Shown: positions 9,139-50,426 of the stretch, piece after piece
How the letters are laid out: each line of letters opens with the position of its first letter
Numbering within the stretch: the stretch's first letter is position 1
Origin: Lysobacterales bacterium
GTDB taxonomy: Bacteria > Pseudomonadota > Gammaproteobacteria > Xanthomonadales > Marinicellaceae
DNA: 64,000 nt
Assembly (NCBI GenBank): GCA_026988115.1
Contig: JALSLV010000026.1
Span: 1 to 64,000, forward strand
Direction of reading: 5' to 3'
Program-made: the position numbers and the translations under genes
Notes under the pieces: model-generated
What the model was told of the DNA's origin: nothing
The model's database searches: none
Seen by the model: the letters and a program-made list of their open reading frames with translations, nothing else

Positions 9139-12096
9139 ATGAAAATTATAATATGCCTAGTTTTGAGTTTTGAACTCATGGCAAACCCTAATCCAACAGC
9201 CATGCTCAATGGACCAAAGGATGAAAGGCATCCGATTGTCGCTTTTACCAATGCCCATCTATTTATTGATGAAAACACAGAGTTAAGCAATGCTTCACTC
9301 ATAATTCAAGACGACAAAATAATTGCAGTTGGTCAAAACATTGATGTACCAAAAAAAGCGCAAGTTCGGGATTTGCATGGTGCAAATATTTATCCGGGCT
9401 TTGTGTTGCTTGATAGCGGTTATGGATTGCCAGAGCCTGGAAAACACGCGCCATTCACTTTTTTTGGTGCTGAAATCATGGACACCACCACAAAAGGCGC
9501 AGTCAATACCAACGAAGCAATAAAAGCTTCTTATCAGGGCATTACAGAATTTCATCACGATATAAAGAAGGCTAAAGAATTGCGTAAACTGGGTTTTTCG
9601 AGCGTTTTATCTTCACGGCATGATGGTATTATGCGCGGTTCTTCTGTGTTGGTTAATTTAAATGATGATAGCGATAACCAAAGTATTATTCAACCAAAGG
9701 TTGCTATGCACTTGTCATTTGATAAGGGTAGCTCAAAACAATTGTATCCAATTTCTTTAATGGGAGCATCGGCTTTGATTCGCCAAACGTGGTTGGATGC
9801 TGCCTGGTACTCAGAAGGGCAACCAAGTTATATCGATGTTGATTTGACGGCTATCAACAAAAACAATCACTTACTCCAAATTTTTGAAACAAAGAACTGG
9901 CAACAAACGCTTCTAGCCGACAAATTAAGCAAAGAGTTTAATAAAAATTTAATCATTAAAACCTCAGGTGATGAATACAAGCATATTGATGCAATAAAGA
10001 AGTTAAATAGAAAGTTAATTGTGCCCCTAGTTATGCCAAAAGCACCAGATGTTGGCGATGAATTGGATGCATGGAAGGTGTCATTAACCGACATGATGAA
10101 ATGGCAGATGTCACCCTATAATGCCTATTATTTAAACAAATACAAGGTTGATTTTGCTCTCATACCATCCAATAATAAGTCTTTCTTAAAAGATTTAGCT
10201 CAAGCGGTTGAAAAAGGCTTGCCACGAAATCAAGCACTAGCAGCGTTAACATCGACACCAGCTCGCTATTTAAATAATTCTAAAATTGGCAATTTAAATA
10301 AAGGTTCTTTTGCGAACTTTATTATTGCTGAAAAAGATTTGTTCAAAAAAGGCGGCAAAATCAATGAAAATTGGGTGGCAGGAAAACGTTATGAAATCAA
10401 TGAAATAATTCCATTGCAATCGGGTATTTATCAGCTCACTATTGCTGGAAAGGCTCAAGAAATTGAGTTGCAAAATAAAGCAGGAAAGCTTGAGATAAAA
10501 AGCACTGCCAAAGAAAGTAAGTTAAAATTTAAGGCGCAATTTAGCGAAGAGTTTGTTCGTTTAAAAATTTCCCAAGCTCAAAATGAACAAAACTTACTGG
10601 GATTAGTTAACTACAACTCCATTACCAGTATTTCAGGAAGTGATCCCGTTTGGCAAGCAAAACGCATAAAAGACATCGATAAAAAAGAGGATAAAGACAA
10701 AAAAGCCAATAAAAAATTAGACATACCCGTTGTTCCACAGCCTTTTTCGGCTTATGGTTTAACAGCTAAGGAAAAAGCTTCGAGTTACCTTATCACTAAT
10801 GCAACGGTTTGGACGGGTGAAACTGCTGGCGTTTTAGAAAACACCGATGTTTTTGTTAAAAATGGAAAAGTTGCAAAAGTCGGGAAAAATCTATCTGTTA
10901 AAGCCGATAAAATAATTGATGGGACAGGGCATTATTTAACGGCAGGGATAATTGACGAACATTCTCACATAGCTCTGTTATCAGTCAATGACATTATGGC
11001 AAACTCATCCATGGTGCGCATGGAAGACGCACTAAACTCCGATGACATCAATATCTATCGCAACCTATCAGGTGGGGTGACTGCCGCACAATTATTGCAT
11101 GGCTCTGCCAATCCATTAGGTGGGCAATCAGCACTCATCAAGATGCGATGGGGAGCTACCAGTGATGAACTGTTGATAAAAGGGGCGGATAAATTTATTA
11201 AATTTGCCTTGGGAGAAAACGTTAAACGGTCACGTTCTCAAAGCTCAATTCGCTACCCTTTGACACGTATGGGTGTTGAGCAAGTTTACCGGGATGCATT
11301 TACCAATGCTTTGGCTTATGAAAAACAATGGAATGATTACAATAAACTCAGTCGTTCTGCAAAGAAAAAAGTCATGCCACCTCGTCGTGATTTAATGATG
11401 GAAGCCACTTTAGAAGTGGTCAATAAAAATCGATATATCACGTGTCACTCCTATGTGCAGTCTGAAATTAATATGTTGATGAAAGTGGCGGATGATTTTA
11501 ATTTTAAGGTCAATACTTTTACTCATATATTAGAAGGATATAAAGTGGCTGATAAGATGTTAGCTCATGGTGTTGGAGCATCGACCTTCGCAGATTGGTG
11601 GGCATATAAGTGGGAAGTCAATTACGCTATTCCTTACAATGCTGCTATTATGACCAAGATGGGTATTACCACAGCAATCAACTCAGATGATGCAGAAATG
11701 GCACGCCGATTGAATCAAGAAGCGGCAAAATCCATCAAATACGGTGGATTAACGGAACAAGAAGCCTGGAAAATGGTAACACTTAATCCAGCGAAACTCC
11801 TGCATTTGGATGATAAAATGGGTAGTATTAAAGTTGGAAAAGATGCCGATATTGTCTTATGGAACGCCAATCCATTAAGTATTTATGCCACCGCTCAAAA
11901 AACATTTGTGGATGGCAAGTTGCTGTTTGATAGGGATAAACAAATGCAAATTGAAAGACAAATATCCAATAAAAGGATGGAGTTAATTAAACAAATTAAC
12001 CAATCCGATGAACCCAAAATGCCCGCACAAATGAAACCCGAAAAGCACATGCAATGCGACAGTTTAACAGGCTATGAATACCTAGGAGCAGGATAA
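9139..12096 (+). CDS. Secreted tandem amidohydrolase, N-terminal module degenerate
   Basis: Start chosen at ATG 9139, which gives signal peptide MKIIICLVLSFELMA; the frame opens at a TTG at 9124. Two amidohydrolase (imidazolonepropionase-like) modules are fused. The first (about 20-430) keeps the beta-sandwich strands but has YPGFVLLDSGYG where the metal-binding HxH should be. The second (about 550-985) has AGIIDEHSHIA (HxH), ITCHSY and NTFTHILEG histidines and INSDDAE aspartate, so it should bind metal. A lysine-rich linker (KEDKDKKANKKLD) lies between. The substrate is unknown; family members hydrolyse cyclic amides, peptides or isoaspartyl dipeptides. The next gene starts immediately after the stop. 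Confidence 0.85.
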   Translation: MKIIICLVLSFELMANPNPTAMLNGPKDERHPIVAFTNAHLFIDENTELSNASLIIQDDKIIAVGQNIDVPKKAQVRDLHGANIYPGFVLLDSGYGLPEPGKHAPFTFFGAEIMDTTTKGAVNTNEAIKASYQGITEFHHDIKKAKELRKLGFSSVLSSRHDGIMRGSSVLVNLNDDSDNQSIIQPKVAMHLSFDKGSSKQLYPISLMGASALIRQTWLDAAWYSEGQPSYIDVDLTAINKNNHLLQIFETKNWQQTLLADKLSKEFNKNLIIKTSGDEYKHIDAIKKLNRKLIVPLVMPKAPDVGDELDAWKVSLTDMMKWQMSPYNAYYLNKYKVDFALIPSNNKSFLKDLAQAVEKGLPRNQALAALTSTPARYLNNSKIGNLNKGSFANFIIAEKDLFKKGGKINENWVAGKRYEINEIIPLQSGIYQLTIAGKAQEIELQNKAGKLEIKSTAKESKLKFKAQFSEEFVRLKISQAQNEQNLLGLVNYNSITSISGSDPVWQAKRIKDIDKKEDKDKKANKKLDIPVVPQPFSAYGLTAKEKASSYLITNATVWTGETAGVLENTDVFVKNGKVAKVGKNLSVKADKIIDGTGHYLTAGIIDEHSHIALLSVNDIMANSSMVRMEDALNSDDINIYRNLSGGVTAAQLLHGSANPLGGQSALIKMRWGATSDELLIKGADKFIKFALGENVKRSRSQSSIRYPLTRMGVEQVYRDAFTNALAYEKQWNDYNKLSRSAKKKVMPPRRDLMMEATLEVVNKNRYITCHSYVQSEINMLMKVADDFNFKVNTFTHILEGYKVADKMLAHGVGASTFADWWAYKWEVNYAIPYNAAIMTKMGITTAINSDDAEMARRLNQEAAKSIKYGGLTEQEAWKMVTLNPAKLLHLDDKMGSIKVGKDADIVLWNANPLSIYATAQKTFVDGKLLFDRDKQMQIERQISNKRMELIKQINQSDEPKMPAQMKPEKHMQCDSLTGYEYLGAG

Positions 12097-43044: not shown

Positions 43045-44289
43045 TTAATCTAATTTTAATAATGTTGTAATGGTGTTAATTGTATTTTCATCGCCTGAGT
43101 TTATCGCATCTCGTATGGCTTTGACTGGTGTGTGATTCAATTTTTTAGTTAAATTGTTAGCCAATTGAAATAACACTTCTTCAACATCTTCGCCTTTGTT
43201 TAATAATTTCAATGCTTTATTCAGGCTGTGGTTTCTAATTTTAGCAGTTTCTTGTTGAAATTTGGAAATCAATTGCGTGTGTTGTTGACTTTTTAGCCAG
43301 TAACAAAAGGATTCGGCTTCGGCTTGAATGATTTCTCTTGCAACCAGTGCGGCTTGTTCGCGATTTTTTAAATTAGAACTGATAACCTTTTGTAAATCAT
43401 CAACCGCATAATAAAAAACATCATTGAATTTTTTAACGCAAACATCCACATCGCGTGGAATAGCAAGGTCAATAATTACAATCGGTCGGTGTTTTCTTTG
43501 CGACAAGGCTGATCTAATTATTTCACAATCAATAATTGGTTTTTTACTTGCTGTTGCCGAAAAAATCAAATCATAAGCAGAGATTCTATTTGGCAATTGG
43601 CTTAACTCAAAGCCAGTGCAATTAAATTGTTTAGCTAATTTATTGGCATTTGATAAGGTTCTATTGCAGATAGCTAAAGAATGGTAACTGTGTTTGCTTA
43701 AATAACGCAATAACAGTTCTGAGGTCGAGCCAGCACCAATAACCAATATGTTTTGATTGTTTAATTCGCCAAATATTTGTTTCGAAAGCTGGACTGAGCT
43801 ATTGGCAATAGAGACAGGATTTTTCCCAATATTGGTATTGCTTCTAACCGATTTTGCTATTCTAAAGGCTGTTTGAAAAAACCGATCAGTTGTTTTATTT
43901 AAAAATCCACTTTGTTTTGAAATGTCGTAAGCTGATTTCACCTGCCCTAAAATTTGAGCTTCACCCAAGACTAGAGAATCTAAGCCAGAGGCCACAGCAA
44001 ACAAATGTTTGATGCAGTCCAAATTAGTGTGCGTGTACAAATGTTGACCAATTTGATCAAAAGTATAACCAAACCACTGACAAAATTGTGTTTGGGCTGT
44101 TTCACAACTGTCGCAATCAAAGTAAAATTCTGTGCGGTTACACGTAGAAGTAATAACGCAGGCATCAATACTTTCATGCTGACACAACTGTTGAACTGCG
44201 TGGGAAACCAAGTCTTGGGCAACTGACATCTTTTCACGAATATCTATACTTGCTGTTGTGTGATTAAGTCCTACGACGACTAATGGCAT
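43045..44289 (-). CDS. hemA: Glutamyl-tRNA reductase
   Basis: First step of C5 tetrapyrrole synthesis. The catalytic Cys is in [12 protein letters not shown], with [14 protein letters not shown], the NADPH-binding [18 protein letters not shown] and the [12 protein letters not shown] segment. Length 414 is typical. The leader is very short: TACAAT at 44305-44300 puts +1 about 4 bases before the ATG. It is divergent from the V4R gene. Confidence 0.96.
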
Positions 44290-44388: not shown

Positions 44389-44430
44389 TTGATGCATGTC
44401 AATACATGATGCTACTAAAGCGGCTAAAAT
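44389..44430 (+). promoter_or_regulatory. FNR/DNR-type class II promoter of the V4R gene
   Basis: TTGATGCATGTCAA (44389-44402) matches TTGAT-N4-GTCAA, the DNR/FixK form of the FNR box. The -10 TAAAAT (44425-44430) places +1 at 44437, so the box is centred at exactly -41.5, the class II activator position. Confidence 0.6.
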
Positions 44431-44463
44431 AATTACCAATCAAGATAATTAGAGAGAGAAATC

Positions 44464-44937
44464 ATGAATAACCCTATTTCAATTGCAAATGCATTAAAAA
44501 TAAATCGTCCCCAGTTAGGTGATCAAGTGGGTTTGGGTCTTTATAGGCTGTTGCGATTAGTCGCATTAGAAGATATTATGGGAGCAGGAGCTTCTTCAAT
44601 TTCTTACTATGCGGGCAAGAAATTGGGTAAGGAGTTGAGTTTTGGGTCAATAGAACAACTACTGGAATTTTGCAAGGACATCAATATTGGTCAAATTAGT
44701 TTATCTGAAATTGTTGATAATAAAGTTCATGTGGATGTGCATGAATGTGCCACTTGTGCAGGAATGGAGCCAGTAGGACGACCTATTTGTCATTTTGAGG
44801 GTGGAATTATCGCAGGAGCTTTAGAAGGCATAACAAAAACGAAAGTGCAAGCAAAAGAAGTGACCTGTATTGGCGGGTTAGGTGATGAAACCTGTGGGTT
44901 TGATATAGTTATGACTCCAATTGAAAATAAAGCTTAA
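44464..44937 (+). CDS. V4R-domain protein
   Basis: 157 residues. The C-terminal half has the 4-vinyl-reductase (V4R) cysteine pattern: VHECATCAGMEPVGRPICHFEGGIIAGALEGIT, then EVTCIGGLGDETCGFDIVM. V4R domains bind small hydrophobic molecules or metal in diverse regulators. No DNA-binding or enzymatic domain is attached. AGAGAGAG precedes the ATG. An FNR-type promoter drives it, as for the Roadblock gene at 49990-50358; V4R and Roadblock proteins are recurrent partners in bacteria and archaea, so the two may work together. Confidence 0.8.
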   Translation: MNNPISIANALKINRPQLGDQVGLGLYRLLRLVALEDIMGAGASSISYYAGKKLGKELSFGSIEQLLEFCKDINIGQISLSEIVDNKVHVDVHECATCAGMEPVGRPICHFEGGIIAGALEGITKTKVQAKEVTCIGGLGDETCGFDIVMTPIENKA

Positions 44938-45064
44938 AATGTTAAGTCCATCACAATATAGTATGTTATATTATAATTGGGGATGGTGTTGTTGATACAA
45001 ATTTGCATTAAAAGCAATCTCAATATCACTTGATTAATCGTTATTTTAGTTGATGGAGAGAATA

Positions 45065-47644
45065 ATGTATCAGTTAATTATTAAAAAAACTTTACTCTTG
45101 CTTGTTTCTGTATTTTTCTGTTTGTTCACACAAAATGCTTACTCTTTGATTGAGTTTGACCAAGACGTGACATCGAATGTCATCTTTGGAATGGGCAATG
45201 TCAATGGCAACTTCACCACCGATAGACGCAATGGTGTTGAGTTAGGTTTACGTGCAAAAATACCTTTTTCAGGTTTGATTCGCAGCAATGCAAATGGCAC
45301 TTACAGTTACACCTTGGCTGAAACGGATCATGACAATAATGCCGCAACAGACCGCAGGTGGAACTTTGAATATTCAGTTAATACAAATTACGATGGCAGT
45401 AGTGGGAATAACCTTGATCAATACACTTATGAGATGGGTTTAGATGCTGACCCGACAGAGGCAACAGATTTTTTGGTTTTTGATCCAATCACTGCAAACA
45501 CGCCGCCATTGAATCAAGCTTTTTTTGATCACAGTATAGGAACAAATGTGACAGCTAATAGTGCAGGAGATGAAGCAACTGATGCTGCCAGTTATGCTTC
45601 TTTACTGGCAAATAATAACTTATTACAACAATCGTGGCGCTATGCATTTTTCCCTATTGCGCCACTAGATACCTATAACCCTGATGCACCAGGTTTATAT
45701 GATATTTATTTGAAAGTGATGTTAAATGGAGTGGAGGTGGCAAAGACAAGCATTAGAATTATTATTTCTGATCCAAGTGCTCATTTTGTTACGCCTGATG
45801 TTATTTTTGGTTCAGGAAACCCCAATGGTAATTTTACCATTACAACAAACAATACCGTTGAAGTGGCTTTGCGTGCAAAGATTCCTTTTTCTGTGTTAAC
45901 TCATTACGATGGCGATCACACCTACAGCTATTCTCTGCTTGAAACTGACTTTGATAATGATCCTGCTACTGCTAATCAATGGAATTTTGAGTTTTCGGTT
46001 AATACGGATTATTTGGATCCAACAAGTTCGGGATTAAATGCCAGTGATTTCACTTATGAAATGGGATTGGATGCAGACCCTGGTATTGGTACTAATTATT
46101 TAATTGCAGATCCAATAACACCGATAGGTACAAATGGAAACACCCAATCACCAGATCATAGTTTTGGAAATAATTCAACCGCAAATGGTGCAGGGGTTGA
46201 ACCACTTTTTCCAATCAATTTGTTTTATATACCTTTGTACGAAGGAGACAATAATGTAGTACAAACATCTTCAAGTCTGTCTTTTCTTTCTGCAATCCCC
46301 CCACTAGATACATATGACCCTTCAATTCCAGGAACATATGACATTTATTTATTGGTTAAATCTGCGGGAGTTGAAGTGGCTCGAGTGGATATTCGTGTGC
46401 TAATCGAAGGAGGTGCGCCAAATTCAGCTCCAACCGTGGTGGCAGATGCCTACAGTGTTGATGAAGATGCGGCTTTAAATGTTGTTAATCCAAATGGTGT
46501 TCTTGCAAACGATACTGATGTTGATGGTGATAGTTTGCAAGTTGTTGATGTTGGGACTATCAATGCGGTTGGGGGGATTGGTGGAAGCATAACGATGGCT
46601 GCTGATGGAACATTTGCCTATGCACCACCATTGGATTTTAATGGCGTGGCGGCATTTAACTATGGTGTTTTTGATGGTTCATTAACAACGCCTTCATCAT
46701 TAACAATAACAGTCAATGCAGTTAACGATATTCCATCTTTTACTAAAGGAGCCAATCAAATGATTATGGAAGATGCGGGATTGCAGACGGTTAATGCATG
46801 GGCAACAAACTTATCACCAGGACCATCCAATGAATCAATGCAGAGTTTATCTTTTAATCTAAGCAATGATAATAACTCTCTATTTAGTGTGCAACCAACG
46901 GTTAATGCAAACGGTGATTTGAGTTATACATCTGCTGCAAATGCTCATGGAGTTGCTACAGTAACTTTAAGTGTTTCAGATGATGGAGGTATTGCCAACG
47001 GAGGAATCGACACATCTGCCACACAAACATTCAGTATTAATATAACAGCAGTCAATGATGCGCCTGAGTTCGCTATATTAGGCGATCAAATTTTCTATTC
47101 ACTAACCAATAATGCGGTTCAAATACCTGGATTTGCTCACTCGGTTATTTTGGAGCCCTTGGGAGAAATGGGGCAGTCTATTATTGGCTATACAGTAAGC
47201 ATTGATGTTGATAGTCAAAACATTTTAACGAATGCAACAATTGATAATAATGGAATGCTTGAGTTGAATTTTGATACTTCAAAATTCGGCACAGCAATTC
47301 TTTCAGTAACACTTCAAGACAATGGTGGTACCGCAAACATGGGTGATGATACGTCTATTACACATAATTTTAATGTATCCCATTTGCTAGATGATTTATT
47401 CAAAGATAGTTTTGAGGATATAGTGCTGGCAAAGATGAGCCAATTTATGGTCTCACAAAATGAGAGTGTAATTTTAAATAATAATAAAACAAATGTGCTA
47501 CCCATTTATCAAGTTAAAGAAGACAGGGTGTTATTTTTAAATTATAGTCTGGACTTGAGCAAGGTTAAAACAAATATGGATAGAATTAAATTGCTAAAAC
47601 AATGGCTTGATGCTGTTTTACTGTTAGAAAATATTGATGATTAA
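45065..47644 (+). CDS. Large secreted protein with duplicated beta module and cadherin-like domain
   Basis: ATG 45065 follows GGAGAG; signal peptide to about NAYS. Two homologous modules of about 200 residues follow. Each begins VIFG.GN.NGNFT and contains LRAKIPFS, TYSY.L.ETD.DN, W.FE.SVNT, TYEMGLDADP and PLDTY.P..PG.YDIYL. Next come a tandem cadherin-like domain (VLANDTDVDGDSLQVVDVG...DGTFAYAP) and an Ig-like stretch. The C-terminus contains DDLFKDSFED, which recalls the short IFADGFE-like endings of secreted proteins in related bacteria, followed by about 70 extra residues. Probably a surface or matrix protein. Confidence 0.75.
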   Translation: MYQLIIKKTLLLLVSVFFCLFTQNAYSLIEFDQDVTSNVIFGMGNVNGNFTTDRRNGVELGLRAKIPFSGLIRSNANGTYSYTLAETDHDNNAATDRRWNFEYSVNTNYDGSSGNNLDQYTYEMGLDADPTEATDFLVFDPITANTPPLNQAFFDHSIGTNVTANSAGDEATDAASYASLLANNNLLQQSWRYAFFPIAPLDTYNPDAPGLYDIYLKVMLNGVEVAKTSIRIIISDPSAHFVTPDVIFGSGNPNGNFTITTNNTVEVALRAKIPFSVLTHYDGDHTYSYSLLETDFDNDPATANQWNFEFSVNTDYLDPTSSGLNASDFTYEMGLDADPGIGTNYLIADPITPIGTNGNTQSPDHSFGNNSTANGAGVEPLFPINLFYIPLYEGDNNVVQTSSSLSFLSAIPPLDTYDPSIPGTYDIYLLVKSAGVEVARVDIRVLIEGGAPNSAPTVVADAYSVDEDAALNVVNPNGVLANDTDVDGDSLQVVDVGTINAVGGIGGSITMAADGTFAYAPPLDFNGVAAFNYGVFDGSLTTPSSLTITVNAVNDIPSFTKGANQMIMEDAGLQTVNAWATNLSPGPSNESMQSLSFNLSNDNNSLFSVQPTVNANGDLSYTSAANAHGVATVTLSVSDDGGIANGGIDTSATQTFSINITAVNDAPEFAILGDQIFYSLTNNAVQIPGFAHSVILEPLGEMGQSIIGYTVSIDVDSQNILTNATIDNNGMLELNFDTSKFGTAILSVTLQDNGGTANMGDDTSITHNFNVSHLLDDLFKDSFEDIVLAKMSQFMVSQNESVILNNNKTNVLPIYQVKEDRVLFLNYSLDLSKVKTNMDRIKLLKQWLDAVLLLENIDD

Positions 47645-47766
47645 TATTATTTAGAGGGTTGAAATGACAGCTATTGAAAATAAAACTTATAGACTGCCTG
47701 TTTTTATGTATTTTATTAGGTTAAAATGCATAATCGTCAAATTGTTGGCTTTTTAACCCTATTAAA

Positions 47767-48123
47767 ATGTTTATGAAAAATTTAGCGCGCTATTTAAAGC
47801 TTTTTTCAGACGAAACTCGGTTACGTTGTCTTCACCTTATTATGGAAAATAAATCCTTGTGCGTTTGTGAAATAACTTATGCTTTGAAACTTTCACAGCC
47901 CAAAATATCACGCCATTTAACATTGTTGAGAAACTATGAGCTTATTTCTGATGAGCGTAAGGGTAAATGGGTATATTATACTATTAATTCACAACTTGAA
48001 ACTCATCAAAAGAAGTTACTCGACTCGATTATTTCTGTACAAAAAAGCACACCACAAGCCCAGTCAGACCAAAAACGGTTAAAAACAATGAAAGGTAGAC
48101 CAGATGTCTTGAATTGCGATTAG
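47767..48123 (+). CDS. arsR: ArsR-family arsenic-responsive repressor
   Basis: A winged-helix repressor of 118 residues. The metal-binding CVCE (KSLCVCEITYALKLSQPKISRHLTLLR) and the wing (DERKGKWVYYTIN) are typical of ArsR. It should release DNA on binding arsenite. An inverted repeat GGTTAAAA (47719-47726) and TTTTAACC (47751-47758) lies just upstream and could be its operator. A second in-frame ATG is at 47773. The ars genes it should control follow after an intervening repeat element. Confidence 0.9.
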   Translation: MFMKNLARYLKLFSDETRLRCLHLIMENKSLCVCEITYALKLSQPKISRHLTLLRNYELISDERKGKWVYYTINSQLETHQKKLLDSIISVQKSTPQAQSDQKRLKTMKGRPDVLNCD

Positions 48124-48157
48124 TTACATATTAATATACGCATAAACATATGTAATG

Positions 48158-48359
48158 CCTGACCGAGAAAGAAGTAATCTACTGCGGAAAAGCTGAATTT
48201 GACCAAAATATTCCATTATTCTCCTTAAATAATGAATTATTTTGCTTCAAATCAGACTTTTACGCGTATCGTCCTGATACTTGCCCACTTCCATGTGAGT
48301 TTACATGAAAATCCTTTCCTGAAGGATTTTTCCTCGCTACGATTCCTTTCTCGGTCAGG
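48158..48359. mobile_element. 202-bp inverted-repeat element inside the ars operon
   Basis: CCTGACCGAGAAAG (48158-48171) and CTTTCTCGGTCAGG (48346-48359) form a perfect 14-bp inverted repeat around non-coding sequence. Inside is a strong hairpin, AAAATCCTT (48308-48316) with AAGGATTTT (48322-48330) followed by T and CC, which could terminate transcription between arsR and arsC. No clear target duplication is seen. Confidence 0.55.
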
Positions 48360-48401
48360 AACTATATATAATTTTTGATGGTAACTATAGATCTGTAAAA
48401 T

Positions 48402-48860
48402 ATGATAAAAAACATTCTCTTTTTATGTACTGGTAACTCCTGCCGTTCAATTCTTGCTGAAGTGATACTTAATCATGTTGGCAAAGAGCGATTTAAAGCC
48501 TACAGTGCTGGCAGTTTTCCAACAGGGAAAGTCAATCCTGATAGTTTAAGCGTTCTTGAGAAACATGGCTTGCCAATTACAGGGTTGTCTTCTCAGTCAT
48601 GGCATGATTTTTCAAACATAAACTTTGACCTAGTCATCACGGTTTGTGACAATGCCGCAGGTGAAGTTTGTCCACTTTACTTAGGACAGGCGATTAAAGC
48701 CCACTGGGGCATTGCGGACCCAGATAAAGTTGTTGGGGAAAATAGGCAAAGTGCTTTTGAAAAGGCGTTCAAACAGATGGAATTACGAATTGATAAAATG
48801 TTGAAACTTGATGAGTTGACACAAGAAAACTTAAACAAAATAGGAAAAACGACTCCATGA
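48402..48860 (+). CDS. arsC: Arsenate reductase, low-molecular-weight phosphatase (thioredoxin) type
   Basis: Reduces arsenate to arsenite. The P-loop [15 protein letters not shown] begins the 152-residue protein. [30 protein letters not shown] and [10 protein letters not shown] follow, carrying the later cysteines and the Asp loop. The stop overlaps the transporter start by 4 bp. No Shine-Dalgarno is clear; the upstream 40 bases lie next to the inverted-repeat element. Confidence 0.92.
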
Positions 48861-49870
48861 ATTTATTTGAACGTTATTTAACCATCTGGGTTGGGCTTTG
48901 CATTGTGTTCGGTGTTTTACTCGGTCACTTCCTACCTGAAATCTTTAATTTGATTGCCCAATTTGAATGGGCTCATGTTAATATTGTTGTCGCTGTTTTG
49001 ATTTGGTTGATGATATATCCGATGATGGTTAAAGTGGACTTTTCATCTATTAAGGACGTGGCTAAAAATCCCAGAGGGTTAATTTTAACGTTAATTGTCA
49101 ATTGGTTAATAAAGCCATTTTCTATGGCATTAATTGGTGCCTTATTTTTTAAAATCATTTTCGCCAATTGGCTAGATGCACAAACAGCGAATGAGTACTT
49201 AGCTGGTGTCATTTTGTTGGGCGTTGCGCCTTGTACCGCGATGGTTTTTGTTTGGTCGCAATTAACCAAGGGCGATGCTAATTACACTTTGGTGCAAGTT
49301 TCGGTCAATGATTTGATAATGGTTGTTGCCTTTGCTCCGATTGCGGGATTTTTATTGGGTGTAACCAACATAAGCGTGCCTTGGGATACCTTGTTATTAT
49401 CTGTTGTTCTGTATGTGGTGATTCCACTGGTCGCTGGATTTATTACCCGTAAAATGTTATTGAAATCGGGTGAGTTAAGTTTAAATCGTTTTTTAACGAA
49501 AATTTCACCCGTTTCTATTACAGGTCTTTTGGCAACGATTGTAATTTTGTTTGGGCTTCAAGCCCCTGCAATCATCAAACAACCATTGGATATTGTTTTG
49601 ATTGCCATTCCGTTACTTATCCAAACCTACGGAATTTTCTTCTTATCGTATTACGTCGCTTATAAGTGGAAAATCCCACATAAAATTGCCGCTCCTAGTT
49701 GCTTGATTGGTACATCGAACTTTTTTGAACTGGCTGTTGCCGTTGCCATTAGTTTGTTTGGGTTGCACTCAGGTGCTGCCTTAGCGACCGTAGTAGGCGT
49801 TCTTGTCGAGGTGCCTGTTATGTTATCTTTGGTCGCCTTTGTTAATCGTACTCGCTTAAAATTTGATTAA
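48857..49870 (+). CDS. acr3: ACR3-family arsenite efflux transporter
   Basis: A 337-residue inner-membrane protein with about ten helices. Family signatures are [48 protein letters not shown] (the critical Cys) and [43 protein letters not shown]. It exports arsenite and completes a minimal arsR-arsC-acr3 set. No clear terminator follows. Confidence 0.94.
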
Positions 49871-49989
49871 ACCGAAATCCCGACAGAGAAAAAACGATTA
49901 GAGCGCAACGCCTTAACACGACTAGCAAATCAAGAAAACTCCTTATCACAATGAGGTGACTAAAAATTTCATTGTTTTGGATTAAACTT

Positions 49990-50358
49990 TTATGATTCTA
50001 CTAACTGAGCAAGTGTATCACTAGCAACAAGGCATTTTTTTAAAATAGTATCAAGGTTTGGAGTGTCCTTAAAGTCTACAAATAACTCGGCATTTTTCCC
50101 CGCCTTGAACATGGCAATGTAGTTTCTTTTGCATTTAATTAAGACGTATTGCACTTCATCTTTTTCAAATTCCTTGGCAGCAGTATTGGCTAATCCAAAC
50201 AGCGCGGCACTAACGGTGCCAATCCTTTCTTCATCAATGTTATGCACTATTTGAGAAGCAACAACAAATCCATCAGCGAGAATAACCGCTGAATCTTCAA
50301 TTTCGGTTAATGAATTATTTAAATGAGTTAATTGTGTTCTAATTTGTTCTGTTTTCAT
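49990..50358 (-). CDS. Roadblock/LC7-domain protein
   Basis: 122 residues with one Roadblock/LC7 fold: SLTEIEDSAVILADGFVVASQI, RIGTVSAALFGLANTAAKEFEKDEVQYVLIKCKRNYIAMFKAG, then a helical end. In bacteria these domains partner small GTPases or regulate motility and signalling; no GTPase gene is nearby. GAAGAA precedes the ATG. Its promoter has the same FNR-type architecture as that of the V4R gene. Confidence 0.78.
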   Translation of the reverse strand: MKTEQIRTQLTHLNNSLTEIEDSAVILADGFVVASQIVHNIDEERIGTVSAALFGLANTAAKEFEKDEVQYVLIKCKRNYIAMFKAGKNAELFVDFKDTPNLDTILKKCLVASDTLAQLVES

Positions 50359-50384
50359 AATAAATTCTTCGTAATAAAAAATTT

Positions 50385-50426
50385 ATTATGATGGTTTAAT
50401 TCAATTAATGCTTTGACCTGAGTCAA
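50385..50426 (-). promoter_or_regulatory. FNR/DNR-type class II promoter of the Roadblock gene
   Basis: TTGACCTGAGTCAA (50413-50426) is a perfectly symmetric TTGAC-N4-GTCAA palindrome. Read on the minus strand, the -10 CATAAT occupies 50390-50385, placing +1 at 50378, so the box is centred at exactly -41.5, as for the V4R gene. Confidence 0.6.

Follow-up and report, generated by a model that had tools for sequence, protein, structure and literature searches.

The question raised by this locus is whether a V4R gene and a Roadblock/LC7 gene, placed on opposite strands and preceded by similar palindromes, belong to one signalling system. Both lie in a stretch of 64,000 nucleotides (nt) of a Lysobacterales bacterium of the Marinicellaceae (assembly GCA_026988115.1, contig JALSLV010000026.1, positions 1 to 64,000), the whole of which is called the window below; its genome (G000) comprises 3.51 Mb in 121 contigs. 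Many bacteria and archaea have V4R proteins, the functions of which are poorly understood. The initial annotation of the window had proposed that each gene has an FNR/DNR-type class II promoter and that the two form a two-part module switched on by low oxygen or nitric oxide (NO). The results of our sequence comparisons strongly support this reading of the promoters, and make it probable that in this denitrifying bacterium V4R and Roadblock are members of an FNR/DNR regulon whose products feed a small-GTPase signalling module. The latter reading is built upon the boxes, their spacing and conservation, the regulators, the regulon, the gene order, the co-occurrence of genes and the folds of their products.

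Promoters, regulon and regulators

Two palindromes of 14 nt matching TTGAY-N4-RTCAA were found where the initial annotation had placed them: TTGATGCATGTCAA at positions 44389..44402 of the forward strand, upstream of V4R, and TTGACTCAGGTCAA at positions 50413..50426 of the reverse strand (read from 50426 to 50413), upstream of Roadblock. The -10 hexamers, TAAAAT for V4R (44425..44430, forward strand) and CATAAT for Roadblock (50385..50390, reverse strand), are each separated from the box by exactly 22 nt. With start sites assumed 7 nt after the hexamer, both boxes would be centred at -41.5, the position proposed earlier; in the V4R promoter the hexamer AATAAT, at a gap of 25 nt, equals TAAAAT in its likeness to TATAAT. 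In a consensus scan, neither -10 was part of a sigma-70 promoter with a -35 hexamer, and a missing -35 at both promoters is what an activator-dependent promoter would show. The sequence of the box does not by itself separate low oxygen from NO as the signal. Matches to TTGAYNNNNGTCAA in the window numbered four, at three places, versus 0.47 expected, and four were reached by 2 of 100 shuffles. A third exact TTGAY-N4-RTCAA palindrome lies at positions 9844-9857 of the window.

Comparison of the genomes of the genus showed that this layout is conserved. V4R orthologues were present in 4 of 151 genomes (G000, G003, G006 and G008), and in all four the gene is preceded by the box with its 22-nt gap. 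Close orthologues of the Roadblock gene were found in G000, G003, G008 and G009, again with the box and the gap in all four; the genome of the window is included in both counts. Since G003 hardly differs from G000 here, the weight is carried by G006, G008 and G009. The half-sites and the -10 are kept while the spacers drift and, at Roadblock, the flanks drift too: the upstream region of this gene has otherwise diverged in G008 and G009, and in G009 the blocks that remain are chiefly the half-sites, the -10 and the start codon. The boxes are thus not absent from relatives that keep both genes, but stand upstream of both orthologues. When gaps of 18-26 nt were measured on 14 box-bearing promoters (four of V4R, four of Roadblock, five of Roadblock paralogues of the genus and one from another family, G119), the best or tied-best -10 was located at 22 nt in all of them, although the hexamer of G119 (TCCAAT) is poor and the promoters of G001 and G005 are identical. 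The five paralogue promoters (G000, G001, G005, G009 and G010) come from a set of 14 further Roadblock copies of the genus which were searched for a box within 160 nt.

A whole-genome scan, foreseen in the initial annotation as a way to an FNR/DNR regulon, gave 81 sites for TTGAYNNNNRTCAA versus 21 for the reversed pattern, and 38 matches (32 distinct boxes by our count) versus 4 when a -10 at 21-23 nt was added to the box. One identical spacer occurs in 8 of the first 50 box sites listed, and the two of these places that were read (L004, about 1498-1550, and L009, about 1465-1517) are part of a hairpin repeat that includes TTGACTTTAGTCAA or its complement. Because this repeat mimics FNR boxes, the bare count of boxes overstates the regulon, and the count of boxes with a -10 is therefore the better figure, even if one of its 38 matches (L058) has the recurrent spacer. 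A family match was obtained for 14 of 17 chosen downstream proteins, several of the NCBIfam matches being under curated cut-offs and some lying on truncated frames. The downstream genes include those of denitrification type, Cytochrom_D1 (nirS), NosR and NarK, together with ccoN, a COX3-like gene, a TonB-dependent heme-type receptor, OmpW, PPK2, carbonic anhydrase, a DksA-like gene and a second Roadblock gene on contig C102; a gene resembling norC by eye had no family match, and several boxes have no plausible gene close downstream. This set of boxes is an ordinary FNR/DNR denitrification regulon.

The genome also encodes regulators of the FNR/CRP family that could read such boxes, with five Crp-type helix-turn-helix (HTH) genes in all. 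An FNR-like protein with a CxxCx5C motif adjoins ccoN on contig C27 (Fnr model, 199.6 bits, below the curated 228). The protein beside the nirS-type gene on contig C79 has FtrB as its best NCBIfam match (89.9 bits, below the cut-off); we take it to be DNR-like from its place and from sequence features. On contig C37, a nitrate/nitrite-sensing NIT domain is fused to a Crp/Fnr-type regulator (L019, 268-1773), next to a gene that resembles moeA by eye. The remaining two are a CRP and a short one. An FNR homologue was found in 13 of the 13 genomes tested. Kept in relatives, and accompanied in the genome by suitable regulators and by a denitrification regulon, the FNR/DNR-type class II arrangement first suggested for both genes is supported.

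V4R, Roadblock and their gene strings

The Roadblock/LC7 gene (49990..50358, reverse strand) encodes 122 amino acids and matches Robl_LC7 (PF03259) at 51 bits versus a cut-off of 23. The V4R gene (44464..44937, forward strand) encodes 157 amino acids and matches V4R (PF02830) at 55.4 bits versus a cut-off of 31, and DUF2507 at 50.4 bits. The AlphaFold model of V4R has a mean predicted local distance difference test (pLDDT) of 69 and resembles MJ1460 (2oso; Z 14.7, root mean square deviation 3.0 over 124 residues) and YslB (3njc; Z 13.3); further matches are the phenol sensors PoxR/MopR, TRAPP subunits and, at lower strength, H-NOX. Five sequences share six invariant cysteines (C70, C95, C98, C109, C135 and C144), with a CxxC among them. 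By our comparison of spacings, C109, C135 and C144 (26 and 9 residues apart) correspond to the conserved trio C206/C232/C240 of MsvR (26 and 8), as given in an excerpt of PMC3729527. Four cysteines bind zinc in Thor-TRAPPC3, similarly to PoxR, according to passages of PMC10933270. Given the fold matches, the invariant cysteines, the MsvR-like spacing and this zinc binding, V4R is most likely a ligand or redox sensor. It does not qualify as an MsvR with HTH and V4R parts, since NF053755 scored 48.3 bits versus 220 with model positions 146-236 alone aligned.

A search across the phylum found V4R in 3 of 398 genomes, its own included; that of G309 is distant (32% identity), and tblastn detected no other part of the gene string described below in its stretch L108. 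A profile search of genome contigs with V4R gave three loci, all of them close orthologues. Strong matches to cytochrome cd1 (E <= 1e-90) were present in 9 of 9 genomes with V4R versus 16 of 27 others (p 0.022, our count), a link that is suggestive only.

The association of V4R with Roadblock, which the initial annotation had proposed, is found again in another family as a string of genes. In G415 a V4R gene (54% identity) is the last of a string composed of a protein of the type found on contig C108 of the window's genome, a Ser/Thr kinase-GTPase, a protein designated LPTP, Roadblock, PAS, two PhnD-like proteins and V4R; moaA- and mobA-like genes, recognised by eye, follow. The first protein of this string is related to proteins of 401 and 384 amino acids of C108 and has no Pfam match. 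The Ser/Thr kinase-GTPase of G415 is a single open reading frame (L107, 12940-14436), with Pkinase at 117.5 bits, ATP_bind_1 at residues 348-411 and the GTPase part detected by tblastn. The string of G555 is the same, while that of G541 has no detectable PAS, LPTP or one of the PhnD-like proteins, parts that are present in a second copy. V4R is separate from the string in G580 and G596 and has a box there, exact in G596 and with one mismatch in G580. A second FNR-type box of G596, TTGACCTGCGTCAA (L120, 11031-11044), precedes a gene which by eye is like that of a NiFe-hydrogenase small subunit. Among the 25 genomes covered out of 150 of this family, a Roadblock homologue was present in 5 of 5 with V4R (that of G596 is divergent) versus 2 of 20 without it (G543 and G554); the Fisher p of 0.0004, like the other co-occurrence p values, is to be taken as a guide because related genomes are not independent.

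The initial annotation had stated that no GTPase accompanies the pair. The Roadblock and Ras-like GTPase genes are indeed not adjacent in the window, but such a GTPase (Ras model, 25.9 bits versus a cut-off of 21.6) is encoded on another contig of the same genome and beside V4R in the other family; the two genes occur together on C108, on C40 of G009, and in G415 and G555. Apart from V4R and the kinase part, the whole string set has homologues on contigs C102 and C108, and the Roadblock operon of C102 shares the promoter design, box and -10 included. A module of two parts is therefore too small a description, as the GTPase, further Roadblock parts and the PAS and PhnD-like parts are encoded on other contigs of the genome and, in the other family, alongside V4R.

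The LPTP protein, a cryptic Roadblock by its predicted fold, has no Pfam match. In its predicted structure (mean pLDDT 87.8), residues 85-208 resemble Roadblock folds, with MglB of Myxococcus xanthus first in Foldseek (E 9e-5). A second fold comparison gave Z values of 8-9, which alone are moderate, with dynein light chains, MglB, Asgard roadblocks and Ragulator subunits in the leading rows. Profile comparison of LPTP with the Roadblock alignment was negative (1.6% probability) despite the clear outcome at the level of fold, and the single match of its sequence to solved structures (E 0.32) was taken as chance.

Several observations weigh against a common signalling module under FNR/DNR control. 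The pairing is loose within the genus: of the two genes, only V4R is present in G006 (98% complete) and only this Roadblock in G009 (99% complete), and the table of V4R and Roadblock (3/1/1/6) gives p 0.088. All five genus genomes that carry V4R or this Roadblock have a GTPase orthologue with an identity of 78% or more, versus 1 of 6 that carry neither (p 0.013), but this limit was set after the list had been viewed, and at E <= 1e-10 a GTPase is present in 10 of 11 genus genomes. All of these counts and Fisher values overstate independence, as with the near identity of G003 and G000 and the identical promoters of G001 and G005. No exact box accompanies the V4R strings of G415, G555 and G541 in the stretches read; the Roadblock strings of G543, G554 and the second copy of G541 have no V4R in the stretch read; and the Roadblock of the strings is nearer to the C102 paralogue (60%) than to that of the window (33%). 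A box within 160 nt is missing from 9 of the 14 further Roadblock copies of the genus, and the structural model of V4R, at the pLDDT given above, is merely moderate in confidence.

Some of these points fit the alternative that V4R and Roadblock are independent members of one large regulon, serving separate purposes and close to each other by chance. With 32 distinct boxes in 3.5 Mb, about 1 box in 10 is expected to have a neighbour within 6 kb, which makes the spacing of about 6 kb between the two boxes weak evidence, and the two genes part ways in G006 and G009. The string common to V4R and Roadblock in G415, G555 and G541, the co-occurrence in 5 of 5 versus 2 of 20 genomes and the promoter design of the C102 Roadblock operon argue otherwise, and we regard this alternative as rather unlikely. 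The joint function suggested initially is thus supported by gene string and co-occurrence, for a unit that is larger than two parts and in which the pairing is loose.

Neighbouring genes

V4R is divergent from hemA, which encodes glutamyl-tRNA reductase (43045..44289, reverse strand), and is followed on the forward strand by a gene for a cadherin-like/Big_9 surface protein (45065..47644), located between V4R and an arsR-type regulator (47767..48123), by an arsC-like LMWPc protein (48402..48860; arsenate reductase model, 72.7 bits, below the cut-off of 174.3) and by the arsenite efflux transporter gene acr3 (48857..49870; TIGR00832, 421 bits). Between arsR and arsC, positions 48148-48369 hold inverted arms of 24 nt, 88% complementary and 174 nt apart, like a small miniature inverted-repeat transposable element. 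In G008, arsR lies about 127 nt after V4R on the same strand; arsC-acr3 and a convergent Roadblock gene are located on a different contig. In G006, arsC lies about 126 nt after V4R on the same strand, with no arsR there, no surface protein and no Roadblock. The surface protein is not in this place in either genome, and the contigs of G003 end before its position. In G004, whose HemA is 98% identical, hemA is beside arsC-acr3 and neither V4R nor this Roadblock is present. These gene orders indicate that neither the surface protein nor the ars genes accompany V4R consistently, and their presence here looks incidental. In G007, which has no V4R, a Ras-like GTPase gene lies beside hemA (L125, 271-780), about 30% identical to the GTPase of C108.

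It is very unlikely that V4R belongs to the arsenic genes as an anaerobically induced, thiol-rich accessory of arsRC-acr3. The placement of arsR or arsC directly after V4R in G008 and G006 would suit such a role, and the invariant cysteines with their CxxC would fit it, but no ars gene was recognised by eye around the five V4R homologues of the other family, on which ground we rejected it; G004 also keeps arsC-acr3 beside hemA without V4R, and in the window the surface-protein gene parts V4R from arsR. The initial annotation, which had called the ars genes unrelated, is likely right as to function, but in these two genomes arsR or arsC directly follows V4R.

There is little probability that the box TTGATGCATGTCAA serves the divergent hemA, with V4R merely adjacent. 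The box is located between the two genes, heme synthesis can be a target of FNR/Anr, and for hemA3 an excerpt of PMC5398030 describes an Fnr site at 41.5 bp before the start site. This explanation was rejected since the exact box was absent from 5 of 5 hemA loci without V4R (a truncated sixth locus, L129, was left out and G005 has no hemA match); in the direction of hemA, moreover, the nearest TATAAT is 37 nt from the box, which is not a class II distance. That the boxes are functionless palindromes, such as the hairpin repeat with the recurrent spacer described above, is scarcely credible, as this spacer is in neither box of the window, half-sites and -10 outlast the drift of spacers and Roadblock flanks, and the reversed-pattern controls (81 versus 21; 38 versus 4) led us to reject chance palindromes.

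Proposed mechanism and known systems

In the preferred reading, that of FNR/DNR regulon members feeding a small-GTPase module, anoxia or NO would make FNR or DNR active, and a dimer of FNR or DNR type on TTGAY-N4-RTCAA at about -41.5 would recruit RNA polymerase without a -35. V4R and Roadblock would then be induced together with nirS, nosR, narK and ccoN and, in G000 and some other members of the genus, with the Roadblock-PAS-PhnD operon. V4R may act as a cysteine-rich, perhaps metal-bound, dimeric sensor of ligand or redox state, and Roadblock as an MglB-like adaptor or GTPase-activating protein (GAP) partner. Their partners would be the Ras-like GTPase, the second, cryptic Roadblock and the PAS and PhnD-like ligand-binding proteins, encoded here on other contigs, so that the induced products would alter the composition or input of an otherwise present G-protein complex. 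MglA/MglB and conservons point to protein localisation or the control of gene expression as output (passages of PMC13343842). Activation, physical interaction, signal and output are the steps that we infer in this reading. It would give a silent family, V4R, a concrete condition (anoxia or NO), a list of partners and a testable interaction. Gene order and co-occurrence in the other family connect V4R with Roadblock and the Ras-like GTPase, and the conserved promoters of the genus link V4R and Roadblock to the denitrification switch.

It is doubtful that V4R, the Roadblock proteins (the cryptic MglB-like one included) and the Ras-like GTPase form one complex of TRAPP-type folds, partly switched by low oxygen or NO. 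If they did, a TRAPP-like assembly would serve as an anaerobic signalling device in bacteria; an excerpt of Podar et al. 2008 (PMC2253512) does not settle whether prokaryotic V4R proteins already act with partners of trafficking type. Eukaryotic and Asgard TRAPP (Bet3/TRAPPC3, longin partners and Rab) is alike in combining V4R/Bet3 and roadblock-type folds, here predicted, with a small GTPase. The likeness is one of folds and genes, while the complex, the guanine nucleotide exchange factor (GEF) activity and the membrane role are known from the TRAPP side.

The stand-alone V4R proteins MJ1460 and YslB have a fold like that predicted for the V4R of the window, and the V4R domain of MsvR shares with it the cysteine trio by spacing, as far as the excerpt cited above goes. 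Unlike MsvR, the V4R of the window has no DNA-binding domain, and it differs from all three in its link with Roadblock/GTPase genes and an FNR-type box.

The promoters are like the class II promoters of FNR, ANR and DNR, such as that of narK in Escherichia coli and those of denitrification in Dinoroseobacter shibae, in their type of box, the -41.5 spacing and the genes of the regulon. About -41.5 is the usual position of the site at FNR-activated promoters, and 19 of 23 directly activated promoters of E. coli with a known start have sites at -41.5 +/- 4 (passages of PMC3688515). They differ in that their targets include V4R and Roadblock signalling genes; a literature search on either protein together with FNR, denitrification or GTPases revealed no such FNR-type target among the matches listed.

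MglA/MglB and the actinobacterial conservons (AGPS) are alike in joining Roadblock, a Ras-like GTPase and sensor-type proteins in one string, and MglB is the best Foldseek match of the predicted structure of the cryptic Roadblock. The system described here differs from them by the presence of V4R, PAS and PhnD-like proteins, by the Ser/Thr kinase-GTPase fusion of G415 and, in the genus of the window, by FNR-type promoters on some of its parts.

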